Assembly: GCA_030849465.1 (NCBI GenBank)
Contig: JARVLF010000024.1
Coordinates: 62,001-126,000 of the forward strand
Direction: 5' to 3'
DNA from: Moesziomyces globuligerus
Taxonomy: Eukaryota; Basidiomycota; Ustilaginomycetes; Ustilaginales; Ustilaginaceae
Length of the DNA stretch: 64,000 nt
Below, piece after piece: positions 3,645 through 14,313 of this stretch (its first letter is position 1; each line of letters begins with the position of its first letter). The translations under genes and the position numbers were made by a program. Under the pieces are notes generated by a model. It had not been told where the DNA came from and did not search any database. It worked only from the letters and a program-made list of their open reading frames with translations.

Positions 3645-6600
3645 CTAAGAGGATGAGTTGATGGATTCGATCCAGCGGCGGGTGATGGGCTGCCAGACGC
3701 CGCGGGTGCGGTAGGTGCCGATGGCAGCACCCGTGAGGATGGCGAGCAAGCTCGAGGCGACGGCATGTCCGAGGATGCTCTGCTGCCTCTGTTCGGTGCG
3801 GATGACCTGGGCGTAGGGCAAGTTGCTGAACGTGGTCATGGCGTACAGGCTGTTCCACATGCTCGAGGGGAGGAGGGCCATGAGGATGCCGTCGATCTTC
3901 TTGCGCAGCAGGTAGGGCCACGAGACGACCGAGTGCGCCATCTCGCGGTAGTTGTTCTCCGCTAACTGGCGGATGGCGACGAGGTCCGGATGGCGGGTAC
4001 GCGTGTACTCCTCGAGCGCACCTTCGAGCTGTTCGCTGGCATCGATGATGTCAAAGAGCACGCGCACGTCCTCGAAGCCGCAGTTGAGGCCCTGACCGTA
4101 GAACGGCAGCATGGCATGCGCAGCATCGCCCACCAGCACCGCCCGATCCTTGTAGTGGTACGGATCGCACTGCACGCTGCCCAGCGCCGAGGCACGGCGC
4201 GACGTGAGCGCACCTACGAGCTTGTCCTCGCCGATCAGCGGCAGCGCATCGGGGAAGTGCTCCTCGAAGAACGCGACGATGCCCTCCTTGGTCGAGAGCT
4301 CGGTGGTGAACATCTTGAACGGCGCAAAGAGCGTGCACGTGAAGCTGCCGTCCTGGTTGGGCAGCGCGATGAGCATGAACGAGTGGCGCGGCCAGATGTG
4401 CAGATGGTTCGGATCGAGCTCGAACGCATCGTGGCCGCCACGCTTGCCGTCGAGGCCGCCATCGCCGCGCACGCGCGATCCAGCCGTGAGCGAGGTGCGC
4501 GGCGGGATCGAGAGCTCGACGTAGCCCGTGTCGATGTAGTTGTGCGTGTAGTGCATGCGGATCAGACTGCCCATGGCCGAGCGCAGCGACGAATGCGCGC
4601 CGTCGCAGCCGAGCACGAACGACGCCAGATGCACCGTGCTCAACCTCGTCGCATGGGCATTGGTGCTGTGCACGTCGAATTCGAGCTTGACACGCTCCAT
4701 TTGACGGTTCAGCTTGATCGGCGCACCATCGGTCGTATCTGGCTTCTTGCCGTCCTGAATCGCCTTGGCGTTCTTGGCCGCGCTGCGCGTGTCATGGTCG
4801 AAATCGACGCTCTGCAGCTTGTGCTCGAAGTGCACCGCGACGTTGGGATGCATGAGCGCATGGTCGAGCAGGATGTTGTTCAGACGGCCGCGGTCGACCG
4901 AGTTGATGCACTCGCCCTTGTTGCTGTACAGCTGGCTCTGCTCGCGCACCTCGGCCTTGCGGCCGACGCTGGCGCGTCGGGTGACTACGTGGATCATCCT
5001 CGCGCGCATCGGCACCGACTCCTGCAGCACGAGGTCCGCCAGATTGCTCTCGGACGTGTACGTGCCGAGGCCGACCAGGCTCACGCTGCGCAGGCCCGTG
5101 ATGCCGCGCGTCGAGAGCGCCAGGTTGATGCTGCGTTGCGAAGCGCGCGCGATCGCATCATGCGTGCGCGGATCCGGTCGTGACTCAAACATGTCCACCT
5201 TGCAGCCGCGCTGCGCAAAGGCCAGCGCCGCCAGACAGCCCACAGGTCCGGCTCCGATGATCGCCACGCGCTCGGGCAGCTTACACTTGGATTCGATCCG
5301 AGCCGGCACGAGCGCACCGCTGGTCACCGTCTCCTTGCGCACGAGTTCGCGCGAGTTGGGTCGCTGGATTTCGGCCGCGCCCGGAGCTGGAAGTGGAATC
5401 GCAGCATCCGAACGCTGCTTTCCGTCTGCCGAGGAGTCGTCGTCTTCGATCTCGGCGATCTTGGCCGCTGGCTGCGGATGCGCGCGCAGCTCCTTGACTC
5501 GCTCGAGCAGCTCGCCGATCTGGATCTGCATCTCCTGCACCGCCTTCTCGGTGTCGCGGAGCGAATGGCTTTGTTCGGCGACGAGCGACTTCCTGACGCT
5601 GGTCATCTCGGAGACGATGGTGCTCTCGGCGCGATTCGAGACCTGCATCATAACATCCTCAAAGTGCGGCGCAAGCACACGGCTGACGACCTCCATCGCG
5701 GTGCGCTGCACAGCCGGCAGGATGGTCTGAGCGATGTTGCGCGTAAGCTCGGTTTTGAGCTCGGTCGAGGTGATGAGGCGCTCCACCTCTTTGGGGATGG
5801 CCGACTCGATGCTCTGGCGGAAACCGTCGCCAACGTTGGCCGCGATTGCTTCGTGCACCGCGGACGTGATGGTCTCGGACAGTGAGGCATCAATGTGATC
5901 TGCGGAAACAGATACGTGCGCTTCCACAGGGGCAGCAAAAGGCGCCGGCTGGGGAGCGGCAGGCTTTGAGCGAGTGGACGGGACAACCTCTGCCTTGGGA
6001 GTTGCGACCTCTGGCTCCGGCTGGCTTGGAACGGGTTGCGCTGCGTCCAACGGTGCAGACTCAGGCTGAGCCTCAGCGACGGTGTCAGGCTGAGGCTCAG
6101 GTGCAGCATCTTTGCGCTGAACCTGTTCAGCCTTGTTCTTCTTGGCCTTCTTCTTCTTGCTCGACTTGCTCGGTGTGGACTGTACCTCTGCAACAGGAGC
6201 CGAAGCAGTCTCTGGCTCGGGCGCACTTGGCTCATCCTTGAGCTGGGCGATGGGCTGGGCGGCAGGCTGGGCAGCCGGCTGTTCGGGCCGCTCGTCGGGC
6301 TCTTCCTTTGGCGGCTCTTCGATCGTCAACCTGAGGACACTGATGCCTTCCGGGAAGGCGACAAACAGCTTCGAAGGCTGATCCGCATCGGCATCGGGAC
6401 TGATCGAGGCAGAGGTGCAGGGGTCCTGCAATGCGAACTCCTTGATCGGGTACGAGAGCTGGACGCTCCACGGAAGCAAGCCCTCGTCGAGGCGCGTGAT
6501 GAGCTCGGTTTTTTGGTGATTGGCTGGCAGATCAGGCAGCGGCTGCAGCTCGAGCGGGACGGCAAAGATGGACGAGCGGAAGCTGTTGCAGACGAGCAGC

Positions 6601-8798
6601 TGGCTAGCCTGCACATCGTGGTGCACGAGGTTGAAGTGCTCCTTGTCTCCGTCGTGCGGGGGACCGTCGAACTTCCAGACGTGCTTCCAAGAGCGTGAGA
6701 CCAGATCGTAGAGGCCGAGAGTGGTGTTGCACCTGAATCCGACGAGGGCGCCCCGGATGCGCTTAGCGCTGTCAGTGATGAAGGAGAGGTGGCTGATGAT
6801 CATGGGCTCCTGCAGAGGCGTCTTGATGAGGAAGGTGTAGTCATCCTCCTTGCCAGCCGCCGCACTGCGGTCGAGCGGGAGGAAGCCAAGGATCCACGAG
6901 ACGTCGCCCTCGAGCGGCGCCGAGACGGTGGCTAACATGGAACCGTCGGGTGTGAAGGCAAAGCCACACAACGGCTCGTTGTGCGCTACGTCCTTGCTGC
7001 TGGGGTCGACGTCGAGCTCGGAGAGGGAGCGCACTTTCTTGGACGGCGAAGCAGGCTGGGTCTGGCGGAGCTGCTCGATAATATCGACGACCATGACGTT
7101 GCTGTCGCTGGTGGAGATGGCGATCCTGGGCTGGGTAGGGTGCCAGGCGATGGCGGTGAATCGGTAGATGAACGGGCTCTTGTAAGGATCGGCGGTGATG
7201 CGGCCCATGAGGAGCGGGGACTCGTGATCCTTGCCATTGACTACGAAAGAGGCAGGAATCTGCCAGAAGACGACGCCCTCGTCGGCGGCGTCTTTGGATC
7301 GCTCGGTGAGTGCCGCGAGCAGGAATGTGTCGTCGTCGCGGCTTGAAGCGAACGCAGCGATCGATCGGACGGCCGCCTTGGCTGGGGTCTGTACGACGAG
7401 CCTTGCGCCGGTAGAGACGTGAATGAGGCGAATTTTGCCCTTGGACATTGCGTAGCAGGCGACGTCGTGGCGCAGGTTGGCGATGCGCGAGGCCGGAAGC
7501 AGGCCGGCAGCCGAGACGTTGCAGGGGAAGTGGAAGGGTGAGGGGATGAGCGCGACACCGGACGACTCGACCTGGGTGTGTCTGAGACTCGAGAGGCCAC
7601 CGGGCTGCTTTGCTGAGAGGTCGAGGGTGGCGATGCTGGGAGCGCTGGATGATCGTGATGGGGAAAGCACCGAGAGGCCGGAGGACTTTGGGTCATCGAA
7701 GGCGTCGTCCTGCTTGAGGACGGCAGCGTGCCGCGAAGCGTGGAACTGCTTGTCCGGCGCATCGAGGTGCGCTGGCTGGGAAGGCAGCTTGCGGAAAGCG
7801 GGACGAGTAGCCGACTTGTTCGAGGATGCCGTGCTAGTCGAAGCACGTCTCTGCTTGGAGTCCTCGGGCGCGGATGGCTGTGGTGGAGGGAAGTTCTGCA
7901 CTGCGGCCTTGTTCTGCGCTGCCGAGCTGGAAAGCTTCTGCATGAGGCGGGCGAAGCCAGCTTCGGCGGCCTCGTAACCGGCGACCGGCGCAGCGAGCGG
8001 CTCGATAGCTGCTGATTCTTGCGAGACGTTCTCGTTCTCGTTGTCCGCCTTTGCTGGCGGGGCAGAAGCCTCGTCGCGCTGGTTTTCGCCGGAGGATAGC
8101 ATGTCGAAAGGGCTGACAAAGTCGAATGGAGTCGACGAAGGAGCGGAAGACGCTGCAGGCGTGGCGGCAGAGGTGGATGGACCAGCCGAAGGAAGGGTCT
8201 TGTCTGCGGGCGGGAGCTCCGTACTGGTTCGGGGAGGCGAGCTAGTGGCGGGCGAGTCGAAACCCGAGGAGGGATGACGGAGCTTGGCGCCGGAAGCACT
8301 GCTTACCGAGCTCGGCGGAGAAGGTGGCAGCTGAAGGGCTTTGTTGTGAATGGCTGAGTGTGGCTTGGTGGGGTTTTGCGTGTGCTTGGTCGGCGGCCGG
8401 ATGGGGTCAGAGGTGTCAGCCGACTTGGCGTTGGGCGAGAGGATGACGAGGGGAGAGGTGGGAGCCATGAATTGCTGCATGAGGTGGCTCACATCCTGAG
8501 GTTGCTTGCGAGGCTGGTTGCGCTGCGAGGCAGTCATGACTGTGGACGGCGAGCTAGGGGCGGTGGCGGCGGCATCCGTAGGAACGCTCGGTGTGGTAGG
8601 AGCGGGAGCGTTTGTGATGGTGGTAGCTGAAGAAGCCGAGTTGGACCTGGACGGGGAGGCAAATGAGAAGGTGAAGGGCGCGGACGGAGGGGACGTGACG
8701 CGGTCGGGAGCTCCTGCGAGGAGGTCGAGGAGCGAGTTGGAAGCAGGGACGCCCTCTGGACGGGAAGTGAAGCCCGAATGAGAGGCGGAGTCCGACAT
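3645..8798 (-). CDS. EDC4-like (Ge-1) decapping scaffold fused in frame to kynurenine 3-monooxygenase
   Basis: One uninterrupted frame of 1717 codons. The ATG at 8798 (context AAAATG) is preferred; the frame opens further upstream but has no earlier ATG. Residues ~1-410 are Ser/Pro/Ala-rich and disordered. ~415-825 form a WD40-like region as in EDC4/Ge-1. ~825-960 are Pro/Ala/Glu-rich with a lysine cluster. ~960-1105 are helical/coiled coil. From ~1173 to the end (~545 residues) is a full kynurenine 3-monooxygenase: FAD-binding VAIIGAGPVG, a second FAD motif VLVGDAAHAMLPFYGQG, and a hydrophobic C-terminal anchor typical of the outer-mitochondrial enzyme. EDC4 scaffolds Dcp1/Dcp2 in P-bodies; KMO makes 3-hydroxykynurenine for NAD synthesis. 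No Met lies between the coiled coil and the Rossmann motif, so the KMO half cannot start alone from a nearby AUG. A hidden intron or internal promoter remains possible. Both halves are recognised with good confidence; that they form one polypeptide is an inference. Confidence 0.82.
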   Translation of the reverse strand: MSDSASHSGFTSRPEGVPASNSLLDLLAGAPDRVTSPPSAPFTFSFASPSRSNSASSATTITNAPAPTTPSVPTDAAATAPSSPSTVMTASQRNQPRKQPQDVSHLMQQFMAPTSPLVILSPNAKSADTSDPIRPPTKHTQNPTKPHSAIHNKALQLPPSPPSSVSSASGAKLRHPSSGFDSPATSSPPRTSTELPPADKTLPSAGPSTSAATPAASSAPSSTPFDFVSPFDMLSSGENQRDEASAPPAKADNENENVSQESAAIEPLAAPVAGYEAAEAGFARLMQKLSSSAAQNKAAVQNFPPPQPSAPEDSKQRRASTSTASSNKSATRPAFRKLPSQPAHLDAPDKQFHASRHAAVLKQDDAFDDPKSSGLSVLSPSRSSSAPSIATLDLSAKQPGGLSSLRHTQVESSGVALIPSPFHFPCNVSAAGLLPASRIANLRHDVACYAMSKGKIRLIHVSTGARLVVQTPAKAAVRSIAAFASSRDDDTFLLAALTERSKDAADEGVVFWQIPASFVVNGKDHESPLLMGRITADPYKSPFIYRFTAIAWHPTQPRIAISTSDSNVMVVDIIEQLRQTQPASPSKKVRSLSELDVDPSSKDVAHNEPLCGFAFTPDGSMLATVSAPLEGDVSWILGFLPLDRSAAAGKEDDYTFLIKTPLQEPMIISHLSFITDSAKRIRGALVGFRCNTTLGLYDLVSRSWKHVWKFDGPPHDGDKEHFNLVHHDVQASQLLVCNSFRSSIFAVPLELQPLPDLPANHQKTELITRLDEGLLPWSVQLSYPIKEFALQDPCTSASISPDADADQPSKLFVAFPEGISVLRLTIEEPPKEEPDERPEQPAAQPAAQPIAQLKDEPSAPEPETASAPVAEVQSTPSKSSKKKKAKKNKAEQVQRKDAAPEPQPDTVAEAQPESAPLDAAQPVPSQPEPEVATPKAEVVPSTRSKPAAPQPAPFAAPVEAHVSVSADHIDASLSETITSAVHEAIAANVGDGFRQSIESAIPKEVERLITSTELKTELTRNIAQTILPAVQRTAMEVVSRVLAPHFEDVMMQVSNRAESTIVSEMTSVRKSLVAEQSHSLRDTEKAVQEMQIQIGELLERVKELRAHPQPAAKIAEIEDDDSSADGKQRSDAAIPLPAPGAAEIQRPNSRELVRKETVTSGALVPARIESKCKLPERVAIIGAGPVGCLAALAFAQRGCKVDMFESRPDPRTHDAIARASQRSINLALSTRGITGLRSVSLVGLGTYTSESNLADLVLQESVPMRARMIHVVTRRASVGRKAEVREQSQLYSNKGECINSVDRGRLNNILLDHALMHPNVAVHFEHKLQSVDFDHDTRSAAKNAKAIQDGKKPDTTDGAPIKLNRQMERVKLEFDVHSTNAHATRLSTVHLASFVLGCDGAHSSLRSAMGSLIRMHYTHNYIDTGYVELSIPPRTSLTAGSRVRGDGGLDGKRGGHDAFELDPNHLHIWPRHSFMLIALPNQDGSFTCTLFAPFKMFTTELSTKEGIVAFFEEHFPDALPLIGEDKLVGALTSRRASALGSVQCDPYHYKDRAVLVGDAAHAMLPFYGQGLNCGFEDVRVLFDIIDASEQLEGALEEYTRTRHPDLVAIRQLAENNYREMAHSVVSWPYLLRKKIDGILMALLPSSMWNSLYAMTTFSNLPYAQVIRTEQRQQSILGHAVASSLLAILTGAAIGTYRTRGVWQPITRRWIESINSSS

Positions 8799-10306: not shown

Positions 10307-11452
10307 CTAGTGCGCAGTATCGCACACCTCGGCCTTGCGGTGCTTCCTGTGCTTCTTGAGCTTCTTGCCAATGTCGGTGCTGCCAACGGGAGCAATCTCG
10401 GTACCAGGAGCGGTGGTCGCGCCGTCCTTGGGCGCAGGGGTCGAGACGGAGCCCGCGCCATAGCCCTCGGCCTGATCTCCAGCTCCACCAGCGCCAGTGT
10501 CAGGGCCAGCGCCCGAGCCAGCGCCAGATCCAGCACCGTAGCCTTCGGGCGGGTTTCCACCGGAGCCTGCGCCAGTATCGCTGCCGCTGCCGCTGCCGCT
10601 GCCTCTGCCGCTGCCGCTGCCGGAGCTGCTCTTGCCGCCTGCACCACCAGTGCAGACGCTGCGGTCACGCTTGTAGTTGGCCTCGGCAGGCTTGCAGCTG
10701 GCGTCGGTCTTGCCCTGGTACGCGCCGACGGTGTTGTCGTCCTTCCTCTGGCAGCCGGACCTGTCGATGAGGCTCTTGGGGCACTTGACGCGCTTGGGTG
10801 CACCCTTGAGCACGGGGTTGTCGCCCCAGCTGGTGAAGCGCCACTTGCAGCCCTCCTGCAGAGGTTCGGGCAGGTTGGAGCACTGCTCGACCGCCTTGAC
10901 GCCGCCGTAGGTCTCGCCCCACTTTTCGGCAGGCGTCTTCCACTGCGCAGGGCAACCCTGCGTGAAGGCACCCAGTCCACCACCGGGGATCTGGAAGTCG
11001 ATGTTGCCACTGTTGACATCGCCGCCCGTGTTGGTGACCTGGAAGAGCAGCTTGTTGCGCTTCATCGGCTTGCCGGAGCCATCGTGCTCGAACTCGGCAA
11101 AGTAGCACGCGCAGTCGGTCGCCTCCTCGTTGCCCGCCGTGAAGGCGGCGAATCCGTACGCCAGCGTGGGGTCGGTACTGTCCTCGAATGGCTGCATGCA
11201 GCTGCACATGTACAGGTCGCCTCCATTGCATCCGCTCTGGCCCGACGCGGCGGTCGTAGCGTCGACCAGAGTGACACCATCCGCCTTGCATACATCGACC
11301 GGCGACCAGACAGGTGCTTTCCCAGCCCAACTCGCCGATCCGAGACAGCAATCCCAGTATCTAGTGGCCATTCCTGCCTCAGCTCCATCGAGCAAGGCGA
11401 GGGGAAGGGCGAGAGAGAGCGCCAACACACCGACGGTGAGCTTGAACGACAT
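10307..11452 (-). CDS. egl1: Secreted GH45 endo-1,4-beta-glucanase (Egl1-like)
   Basis: 381 residues in one exon. Residues 1-26 are a signal peptide ending in AEA. A glycoside hydrolase family 45 domain follows (~27-245). Its signature TRYWDCC places the catalytic base at Asp34. The segment NIDFQIPGGG places the catalytic acid at Asp152, and NTGGD the assisting Asp145; these align with Asp10, Asp121 and Asp114 of Humicola Cel45A. Many paired cysteines fit the family fold. The last ~110 residues are a Gly/Ser/Ala-rich tail with no cellulose-binding module. The enzyme cuts internal beta-1,4 bonds of cellulose outside the cell. Length and layout match U. maydis Egl1, which is described as expressed in the filamentous stage; regulation here is inferred. 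A TATAAG sequence lies on this strand at 11689-11694. Confidence 0.93.
   Translation of the reverse strand: MSFKLTVGVLALSLALPLALLDGAEAGMATRYWDCCLGSASWAGKAPVWSPVDVCKADGVTLVDATTAASGQSGCNGGDLYMCSCMQPFEDSTDPTLAYGFAAFTAGNEEATDCACYFAEFEHDGSGKPMKRNKLLFQVTNTGGDVNSGNIDFQIPGGGLGAFTQGCPAQWKTPAEKWGETYGGVKAVEQCSNLPEPLQEGCKWRFTSWGDNPVLKGAPKRVKCPKSLIDRSGCQRKDDNTVGAYQGKTDASCKPAEANYKRDRSVCTGGAGGKSSSGSGSGRGSGSGSGSDTGAGSGGNPPEGYGAGSGAGSGAGPDTGAGGAGDQAEGYGAGSVSTPAPKDGATTAPGTEIAPVGSTDIGKKLKKHRKHRKAEVCDTAH
10579..10622. repeat. Hexanucleotide repeat coding Gly-Ser tail of the GH45 enzyme
   Basis: Near-perfect CCGCTG units (one CCTCTG variant) that encode alternating Gly/Ser in the C-terminal tail. In-frame length changes would lengthen or shorten the tail without a frameshift. 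Confidence 0.75.
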
Positions 11453-12741: not shown

Positions 12742-14313
12742 TTAATCGAGCGCCACGTTGTCCTTGTCCTCGTCGCGGTCGGCGTCTTCCTCGGCCTCGT
12801 CCTCGTCGTCGGCGTCGGCAACCGTGTCGATCCAGCCGTTGGTGAGTTTGCGGCCGAGCTCGTCGTGCTTGCCGCCGTAGTACTGGCAGCTCTCGGCATT
12901 GACCGGCCCGGTATCGTCGCAAAAGTCAAACACGGGACAGTGGCCGCACGGCGTCTCTGTCCAGCCGACCTTGACGGCGTGTGGGCGTACGGCACGGTAG
13001 ACAAAGGGCACAAAGTCGCCTCCACCACCCGAGCTGGGTCGATGCGAGCCGCTCGCCTTGCCATTGCGCTTCTTCTTCTTGCTCCGCTTCCGCGCATGCG
13101 ACGATGAAGAGGATGAGGAAGATGCATCCGACTCCGAACCACTCGCCTCGGACGACGAGTCGGACGCCGCGCGAGACCGCGATCGGGATCGCGAACGGGA
13201 CCGCGAACGGGACCGCGACGACCTCTTGTCCTTCGACTTGCTGCGCTTGGATGATTTGCTCTTCTTGCGCGACGATGGCTTGCCAGACGACCTCTTGCGC
13301 TTGCCGCTCGTGGGACCGTCGTCATCGTCGCTGTTCGAATCGTCCTCATCGCCCTTGCGCTCCTTCTTGATCTTCTTCTTGCGCGGGGCATCGCTCTCCG
13401 ATCCCGTCTCCTGAGCAGATGATTCGCTGTCGGATCCGCTCCCGCTCTCGCTGTCCGAGCCGCTACCGCCCGAGGAGGTGCCTGAGTCGGTATAGTCGTC
13501 GTCGAAGCCGTTTGTCGCGCCGCCGCCAAAGGAGAAGGGCAGGACGGGGATCTTTTCGATCTGTTCGTCGTAGACGAGGATGTCCAGCAGCGAAACCACG
13601 TGCTCGAGCTCGAGCTCGGTCTCGGTGAGCCCCGAGCTGCGAAGATACGAGTGCACTGTGTTGGCCGAGGGCAGCTGCGAGGTGTGACTGGTCGGGAAGA
13701 GAGCTCTGGACTGGCCATTCTTGGGGAACGACTTGGAGCGGATAAAGTTGAGACACGCCATGGAGAGCTCGCTGATGAAGCCGGTATCGAGCTCGTTGTC
13801 CGTGTACCACGGTCCGCCCGAAAGCTCGATGGAAGGCGTGAGGCCGTAGAGCATGTAGATCTTTCGTGTTGGATACTTGACCGATTTGACGGCCTTGACG
13901 AGCTGCTTCTGCTCGAGCGACTTGAGGCAGCGGTTGATGATGGTCTGGTGGAGACCCGATCGTGCCTTTAGCTGCTTTGTCCAGATGCCCTCGTTGCGCG
14001 AGTCCTTGATGTGCTGGTAGACCATGGTTTCGGTCTCGTCGAGCTTGCCCATCATGCTCGCCTCGGCCTTGGCGGTGGCAGCATACTGGATGGAGCCGTT
14101 GAGGGTCTGGACGGTGAAGAGGCTCTTCTTGAGCAGGCCGTTGATGGCCTGAAGCTGGTCGTGGAGCTGCTCATGCTTGAACTGGTCCGTGATCTGGTCC
14201 TGGGTGATGACGCCGCCGCGGGCGGACTGCGCGGCTCGGTAGAGGGCGGACTCGAGCTTGGTGAGCTTGGCGCCTCCCACCGAGGTGGAGGAGGAGGCCC
14301 TTGCGCTGGGCAT
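12742..14313 (-). CDS. RPC34: RNA polymerase III subunit RPC6 (C34) with low-complexity insertion
   Basis: 523 residues, single exon, ATG at 14313. The N-terminal ~270 residues carry tandem winged-helix domains of the RPC34/RPC39 family (KLTKLESALYRAA, the second domain around GIWTKQLKARSGLHQTI, and a third). The C terminus has the iron-sulfur cysteines Cys456, Cys459, Cys465 and Cys476 in CGHCPVFDFC and ESCQYY. Between them (~275-440) is an unusual Ser/Asp/Lys/Arg-rich insertion with an SR-dipeptide run and acidic Ser-Asp blocks. An acidic tail ends the protein. The subunit belongs to the Pol III heterotrimer that contacts TFIIIB and helps open tRNA and 5S promoters in the nucleus. Yeast and human relatives are about 315 residues, so the insertion accounts for most of the extra length. 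It is divergent from DUG2. Confidence 0.93.
   Translation of the reverse strand: MPSARASSSTSVGGAKLTKLESALYRAAQSARGGVITQDQITDQFKHEQLHDQLQAINGLLKKSLFTVQTLNGSIQYAATAKAEASMMGKLDETETMVYQHIKDSRNEGIWTKQLKARSGLHQTIINRCLKSLEQKQLVKAVKSVKYPTRKIYMLYGLTPSIELSGGPWYTDNELDTGFISELSMACLNFIRSKSFPKNGQSRALFPTSHTSQLPSANTVHSYLRSSGLTETELELEHVVSLLDILVYDEQIEKIPVLPFSFGGGATNGFDDDYTDSGTSSGGSGSDSESGSGSDSESSAQETGSESDAPRKKKIKKERKGDEDDSNSDDDDGPTSGKRKRSSGKPSSRKKSKSSKRSKSKDKRSSRSRSRSRSRSRSRSRAASDSSSEASGSESDASSSSSSSSHARKRSKKKKRNGKASGSHRPSSGGGGDFVPFVYRAVRPHAVKVGWTETPCGHCPVFDFCDDTGPVNAESCQYYGGKHDELGRKLTNGWIDTVADADDEDEAEEDADRDEDKDNVALD
13171..13223. repeat. 12-bp tandem repeat coding SR dipeptides in RPC6
   Basis: Units of the type GCGAACGGGACC (exact at 13191-13202 and 13203-13214, diverged before and after). 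On the minus strand they encode a run of Ser-Arg dipeptides in the RPC6 insertion. Confidence 0.7.

Follow-up and report, generated by a model that had tools for sequence, protein, structure and literature searches.

Can a scaffold of the mRNA decapping machinery and an enzyme of NAD synthesis be made as a single protein? This question is raised by a locus within a 64,000 nt stretch of Moesziomyces globuligerus DNA (hereafter the window), for which a sequence-only reading had claimed a continuous 1717-codon frame leading from an EDC4-type scaffold into a FAD monooxygenase. The minus strand of the window is indeed open throughout from 8798 to 3645, where the frame ends with a stop codon. Upstream, it stays open as far as 8897, and 8798 is the first ATG. 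The encoded protein would comprise, in this order, a disordered N-terminus, a predicted WD40 propeller, a long coiled coil, a 66-residue linker and a complete kynurenine 3-monooxygenase (KMO). Coordinates are compiled in Table 1.

Table 1. Fused frame and its parts, with positions in the window and the basis of each assignment.
Feature	Residues	Position	Strand	Basis
Whole fused frame		3645..8798	-	1717 codons + stop; KMO domain in 12/12 scaffold relatives
N-terminal low-complexity region	1-429	7512..8798	-	mean identity 0.54 (residues 1-400 vs 11 relatives)
LLxxL-type motif 1, SNSLLDLLAGAP (candidate HLM)	23-27	8718..8732	-	pattern scan; conserved also in P0015
LLxxL-type motif 2, SHLMQQFMAP (candidate HLM)	106-110	8469..8483	-	pattern scan
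LLxxL-type motif 3, FARLMQKLSS (candidate HLM)	285-289	7932..7946	-	pattern scan
Predicted WD40 beta-propeller (strands)	439-823	6330..7484	-	predicted model
Lys/Glu/Pro-rich low-confidence region	828-965	5904..6317	-	pLDDT <50 at model residues 429-566
Coiled coil / long helices	966-1106	5481..5903	-	helices at model residues 567-707, also in the enzyme-half model
Disordered linker without Met	1107-1172	5283..5480	-	pLDDT <50 at 1107-1160; in-frame codon signal
KMO	1173-1717	3648..5282	-	matches to solved KMOs, predicted model, 5 substrate-site residues identical in 17/17 rows
FAD Rossmann motif GAGPVG	1182-1187	5238..5255	-	frame translation + aligned rows
C-terminal hydrophobic helix (predicted membrane anchor)	1675-1693	3720..3776	-	hydropathy scan

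The identity of the enzyme half is clear. In a comparison with the solved KMOs of yeast, rat, human and Pseudomonas, the best match is yeast 4j2w (E=1.8e-84), covering residues 1173-1338 and 1392-1638. A model predicted for residues 960-1717 has a mean pLDDT of 78, and KMO heads its Foldseek list with full-length rat KMO 6lkd at the top (E 1.2e-40, TM 0.92 by target length). Among 17 aligned rows, the glycines of the FAD motif are invariant, and so are R1267, Y1291, N1572, E1576 and Y1617, which we take to be the KMO substrate-site positions (R85, Y99, N363, E366 and Y398 in human numbering). The C-terminal region of KMO serves as its anchor in the mitochondrial outer membrane. In the fused protein, the highest 19-residue hydropathy window (1.87) of the entire chain coincides with the predicted C-terminal membrane anchor; the corresponding value amounts to 1.82-2.09 in 12/12 fused relatives and to 1.08 in P0015, a shorter relative described below. 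Fold, catalytic residues and predicted hydrophobic helix are all present, in agreement with the earlier claim of a complete KMO that has retained its C-terminal anchor. With yeast Bna4 and the rat and human enzymes, the window protein shares the full catalytic domain, the FAD motif, the residues of the substrate site and a hydrophobic helix at the C-terminus. In contrast to the known KMOs, it carries about 1172 additional N-terminal residues and has no own start codon, whereas the solved KMOs found comprise 391-495 residues. The Met that most closely precedes the enzyme is residue 1090, in the coil, and the next one, residue 1203, is located behind the Rossmann glycines G1182, G1184 and G1187. 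This means that the enzyme half lacks an AUG of its own, as had been noted from the frame.

Is the fusion confined to this genome? The same reading had suggested searching smut relatives for it. When the scaffold region was used as query in the full-length setting, 7987 candidates were scored and 12 reached E<=0.001; all 12, protein models made by others and 1324-1799 residues long, contain the KMO Pfam domain. Eight of them are named: Moesziomyces antarcticus, the closest protein relative with 77% identity across the whole protein, Ustilago loliicola, U. tritici, U. nuda, Melanopsichium pennsylvanicum, Sporisorium reilianum, S. graminicola and Kalmanozyma brasiliensis. According to a taxonomy look-up, Moesziomyces belongs to the Ustilaginaceae, and the genera of the other named fused relatives presumably do so as well. 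The single unbroken frame and the presence of KMO in all 12 scaffold relatives suggest that the two halves would be one protein, and the product is likely one polypeptide of about 185 kDa. Two further models deviate. In P0016, a 513-residue model near Moesziomyces, the frame is broken twice, once in the linker and once within KMO, probably due to a poor, error-rich assembly. P0015 (823 residues) has an N-terminal LLxxL motif and the coil joined to KMO, and WD40 is absent from the model; this may be a genuine short form or an artefact of intron prediction. Database entries from S. reilianum, M. pennsylvanicum and M. antarcticus designated 'related to BNA4 - kynurenine 3-mono oxygenase' (1692-1749 residues) represent the same fused protein. 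The fused protein is already in the databases under the name of the enzyme half alone, with the scaffold half absent from the names shown. A description of it was not found in literature searches covering open-licence papers.

As protein models may span a frame break by a false intron, the DNA evidence proper comes from the linker of the window itself. Its codon score in frame is +0.18 bits/codon, compared to -0.62 and -0.60 in the other forward frames and -0.12, -0.03 and -0.57 on the opposite strand, and the in-frame value was reached by 0/5000 shuffles. No CTRAY branch motif is present in codons 1001-1200, i.e. the 600 bases around the junction. In the relatives, the linker varies: Its mean identity to the window protein is 0.27, compared to 0.69 for the coil (residues 985-1106, 12 relatives), 0.80 for KMO and 0.61 for the last residues before the enzyme. 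It has seven different lengths between 60 and 83 residues and is in frame in 13/13 rows (window and 12 relatives). These data bear on the suspicion that neighbouring genes were merged by an assembly error or by a chance open frame. Openness alone says little, since a linker of the same make-up stays open in 18% of shuffles, and the frame breaks of P0016 could be quoted in favour of such an artefact. However, the fusion is common to 12/12 relatives from several sources, all length changes of the linker are in frame and the linker itself has a codon signal, so that an artefact is very improbable.

Within the linker, a motif [ST]KCxLP located just before the enzyme (window 5283-5315) is kept in 13/13 fused rows, while the rest drifts. 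It could belong to the fold of the enzyme, be cleaved or act as a signal at the RNA level. If it marks a signal, one gene might yield two products, the whole fusion and KMO alone, the latter from a promoter inside the gene, by alternative splicing or by cleavage of the linker. The predicted disorder of the linker would be compatible with two products. Nevertheless, this scenario is improbable: There is no AUG between codons 1090 and 1203, and in 8/13 fused rows no Met is found from the position of residue 1100 to the enzyme. Furthermore, the CTRAY motif is missing in codons 1001-1200, and the one GTAAG-type site, at 5284, hangs on a Lys codon present only in the window and in P0001.

To trace the origin of the fusion, a KMO tree with 36 rows was used, 23 of which were taken from 120 listed KMO relatives (the best 120 of 7998 matches). 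P0040, P0047 and P0087 were dropped as the KMO-excision motif did not match them, and P0016, P0017, P0018 and P0023 were left out by choice. All 13 fused rows group in one clade (100/99), which lies in a wider clade (100/99) together with P0015, P0013 and Testicularia; the inner order of this wider clade is weakly supported (57/26). A single clade of 14 fused rows including P0015 was not rejected (p-AU 0.524). P0013 begins with MPERVAVIGAG. In Testicularia cyperi (Ustilaginales, Anthracoideaceae), 120 unrelated residues precede KMO in a model labelled 'LOW QUALITY'. Among the matches listed, the models from Tilletiaria, Malassezia, Exobasidium, Jaminaea and others have 471-548 residues. A search for KMO genes standing alone had also been proposed beforehand: Testicularia and other Ustilaginomycotina models have KMO without the scaffold, which indicates that the fusion is derived in Ustilaginaceae or perhaps a slightly wider group. 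We infer that stand-alone KMO is older and that the fusion has a single origin, in or near Ustilaginaceae.

Which scaffold was joined to the enzyme? In S. pombe Pdc1, N-terminal HLMs are followed by WD40 and a coiled coil, as described in PMC4320757. Leu-rich motifs at the N-terminus are common to Pdc1 and the window protein, and the order of WD40 propeller and subsequent coiled coil matches that of Pdc1 and metazoan EDC4 (Ge-1) (PMC4320757 and PMC8984151). Residues 1-430 contain three LLxxL-type motifs versus 0.29 expected (10/2000 shuffles), with a pattern that was picked after viewing the sequence; they may represent Edc3-binding HLMs. The Ge-1C domain, residues 932-1076 of Pdc1, is missing, and KMO is found in its place. 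The gap between coil and enzyme comprises 66 residues compared to 145 in the Pdc1 construct 932-1076 (PMC4320757), so that the linker offers too little space for a Ge-1C domain. Together with the lack of an EDC4_C match, this is in line with the earlier proposal that KMO appears to replace the usual C-terminal domain of EDC4.

The EDC4 label itself could not be confirmed. WD40 propeller and coiled coil fit it, but in contrast to Pdc1 and EDC4, the window protein has no recognisable EDC4 Pfam signature. Ge1_WD40 (PF16529), Beta-prop_EDC4L (PF24106) and EDC4_C did not match it at E<=0.1, and neither Ge1_WD40 nor the EDC4-like (Pdc1) propeller nor EDC4_C matched six family members at E<=10. As a reference, human EDC4 was used, pieces of which were validated by their own strong Pfam matches (PF16529, E 9.7e-160). 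The family WD40 profile scored 4.1 bits against it, a value reached by 0/487 shuffles reported of 1000. WDR5 and GNB1 scored 2.0 and -1.1 bits, respectively, while WD40 frames from the same genome, chosen by a crude motif count, obtained 7.9, 7.5 and 2.9 bits. Across 280 columns, hhalign aligns the profile with EDC4 in a colinear manner, albeit weakly (E 0.014, probability 3%). For the coil, the score against the human EDC4 coil was 3.4 bits (15/1000 shuffles as good), and the hhalign probability 0.6%. Since the family models do not match and the profiles do not separate EDC4 from other WD40 proteins, the assignment is based on the architecture, from which the scaffold is probably of the EDC4/Pdc1 type.

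The main alternative accepts the fusion as real and assigns its first half to another WD40/coiled-coil scaffold without a role in decapping. It would account for the unmatched EDC4 family models and for profile scores to human EDC4 that are no better than those to other WD40 proteins. It would also fit the diversity of propellers that Foldseek and VIA list for the WD40 part, among them Nup214, Erb1, RbBP5 and coronins. Against it stand the LLxxL motifs, WD40 and coil, ordered as in Pdc1 (PMC4320757), and the colinear hhalign alignment, in spite of its low probability. Moreover, the Pdc1 and EDC4_C models have no other match in this genome, although they matched no control. On this evidence, a scaffold of another kind is the less likely reading.

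To find further copies, the genome (18.5 Mb, 24 contigs) was searched for both halves. The KMO half has one full match, while three others extend over about 40 residues each (E 1e-5 to 4e-4), and the WD40 part has one match. No KMO other than the fused frame was found in the genome. Searches with the three EDC4 models yielded no match at the fused gene and either generic WD40 frames elsewhere or nothing; the Pdc1-propeller (PF24106) and EDC4_C models matched no control genome either. The kynurenine pathway is represented in the genome by 3-HAO and two IDO-type frames, and the decapping machinery by one DCP2 and two FDF-domain frames.

One of the two IDO-type frames sits in a 1058-codon open frame, possibly another long fusion in the same pathway. 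In the window, the fused gene has as neighbours a membrane glycosyltransferase (PF13632; 88-2148, plus strand), the N-terminus of which weakly resembles an acyltransferase, and a protein of glycosyl hydrolase family 45 whose tail is rich in Gly/Ser (10307-11452, minus strand). The frame at 12742-14313 (minus strand) encodes the RNA polymerase III subunit Rpc34 (PF05158, E 1.8e-79), matched in two stretches that are separated by a long Ser/Arg/Lys-rich low-complexity insert.

Taken together, we favour, with a probability of roughly 0.6, one gene that joins a WD40/coiled-coil scaffold, likely of the EDC4/Pdc1 type, to the only KMO found, yielding one mitochondrion-anchored polypeptide. In this protein, the C-terminal KMO helix is predicted to hold the molecule on the mitochondrial outer membrane with the scaffold in the cytosol. 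There, the N-terminal LLxxL motifs may bind an Edc3-type LSm protein, and the coil may oligomerise. The KMO half, with its catalytic residues intact, would make 3-hydroxykynurenine for NAD synthesis. Such a product might tether decapping to mitochondria or link mRNA decay with kynurenine/NAD metabolism, as had been proposed from the frame. Historically, an adjacent scaffold gene and a KMO gene could have been joined in or just before Ustilaginaceae, with the linker taking the position of Ge-1C in Pdc1/EDC4. In that case, one Dcp1:Dcp2 contact would have been given up in exchange for a membrane enzyme. Only tentatively can this be extended to the whole smut family, where all of the scaffold would be KMO on mitochondria, Ge-1C would have been traded, and mRNA decay sites and NAD synthesis would be locked together 1:1.

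If one protein is made, nature has carried out an experiment in these fungi by anchoring an mRNP scaffold to an organelle. It could then be asked if a decapping scaffold remains functional when it is immobilised on mitochondria and lacks Ge-1C. Should the 1:1 coupling of P-body scaffold and KMO hold, a 'KMO' knockout in these fungi would also remove their decapping scaffold. According to the title of an article, the KMO gene SsCI51640 is needed for mating/filamentation of Sporisorium scitamineum via the cAMP pathway (Shen et al., Phytopathology 113:484, cited as reference 26 in PMC11033459). S. reilianum and S. graminicola have the fusion; if SsCI51640 encodes it too, the phenotype announced in that title may stem from the scaffold half and not from the enzyme.
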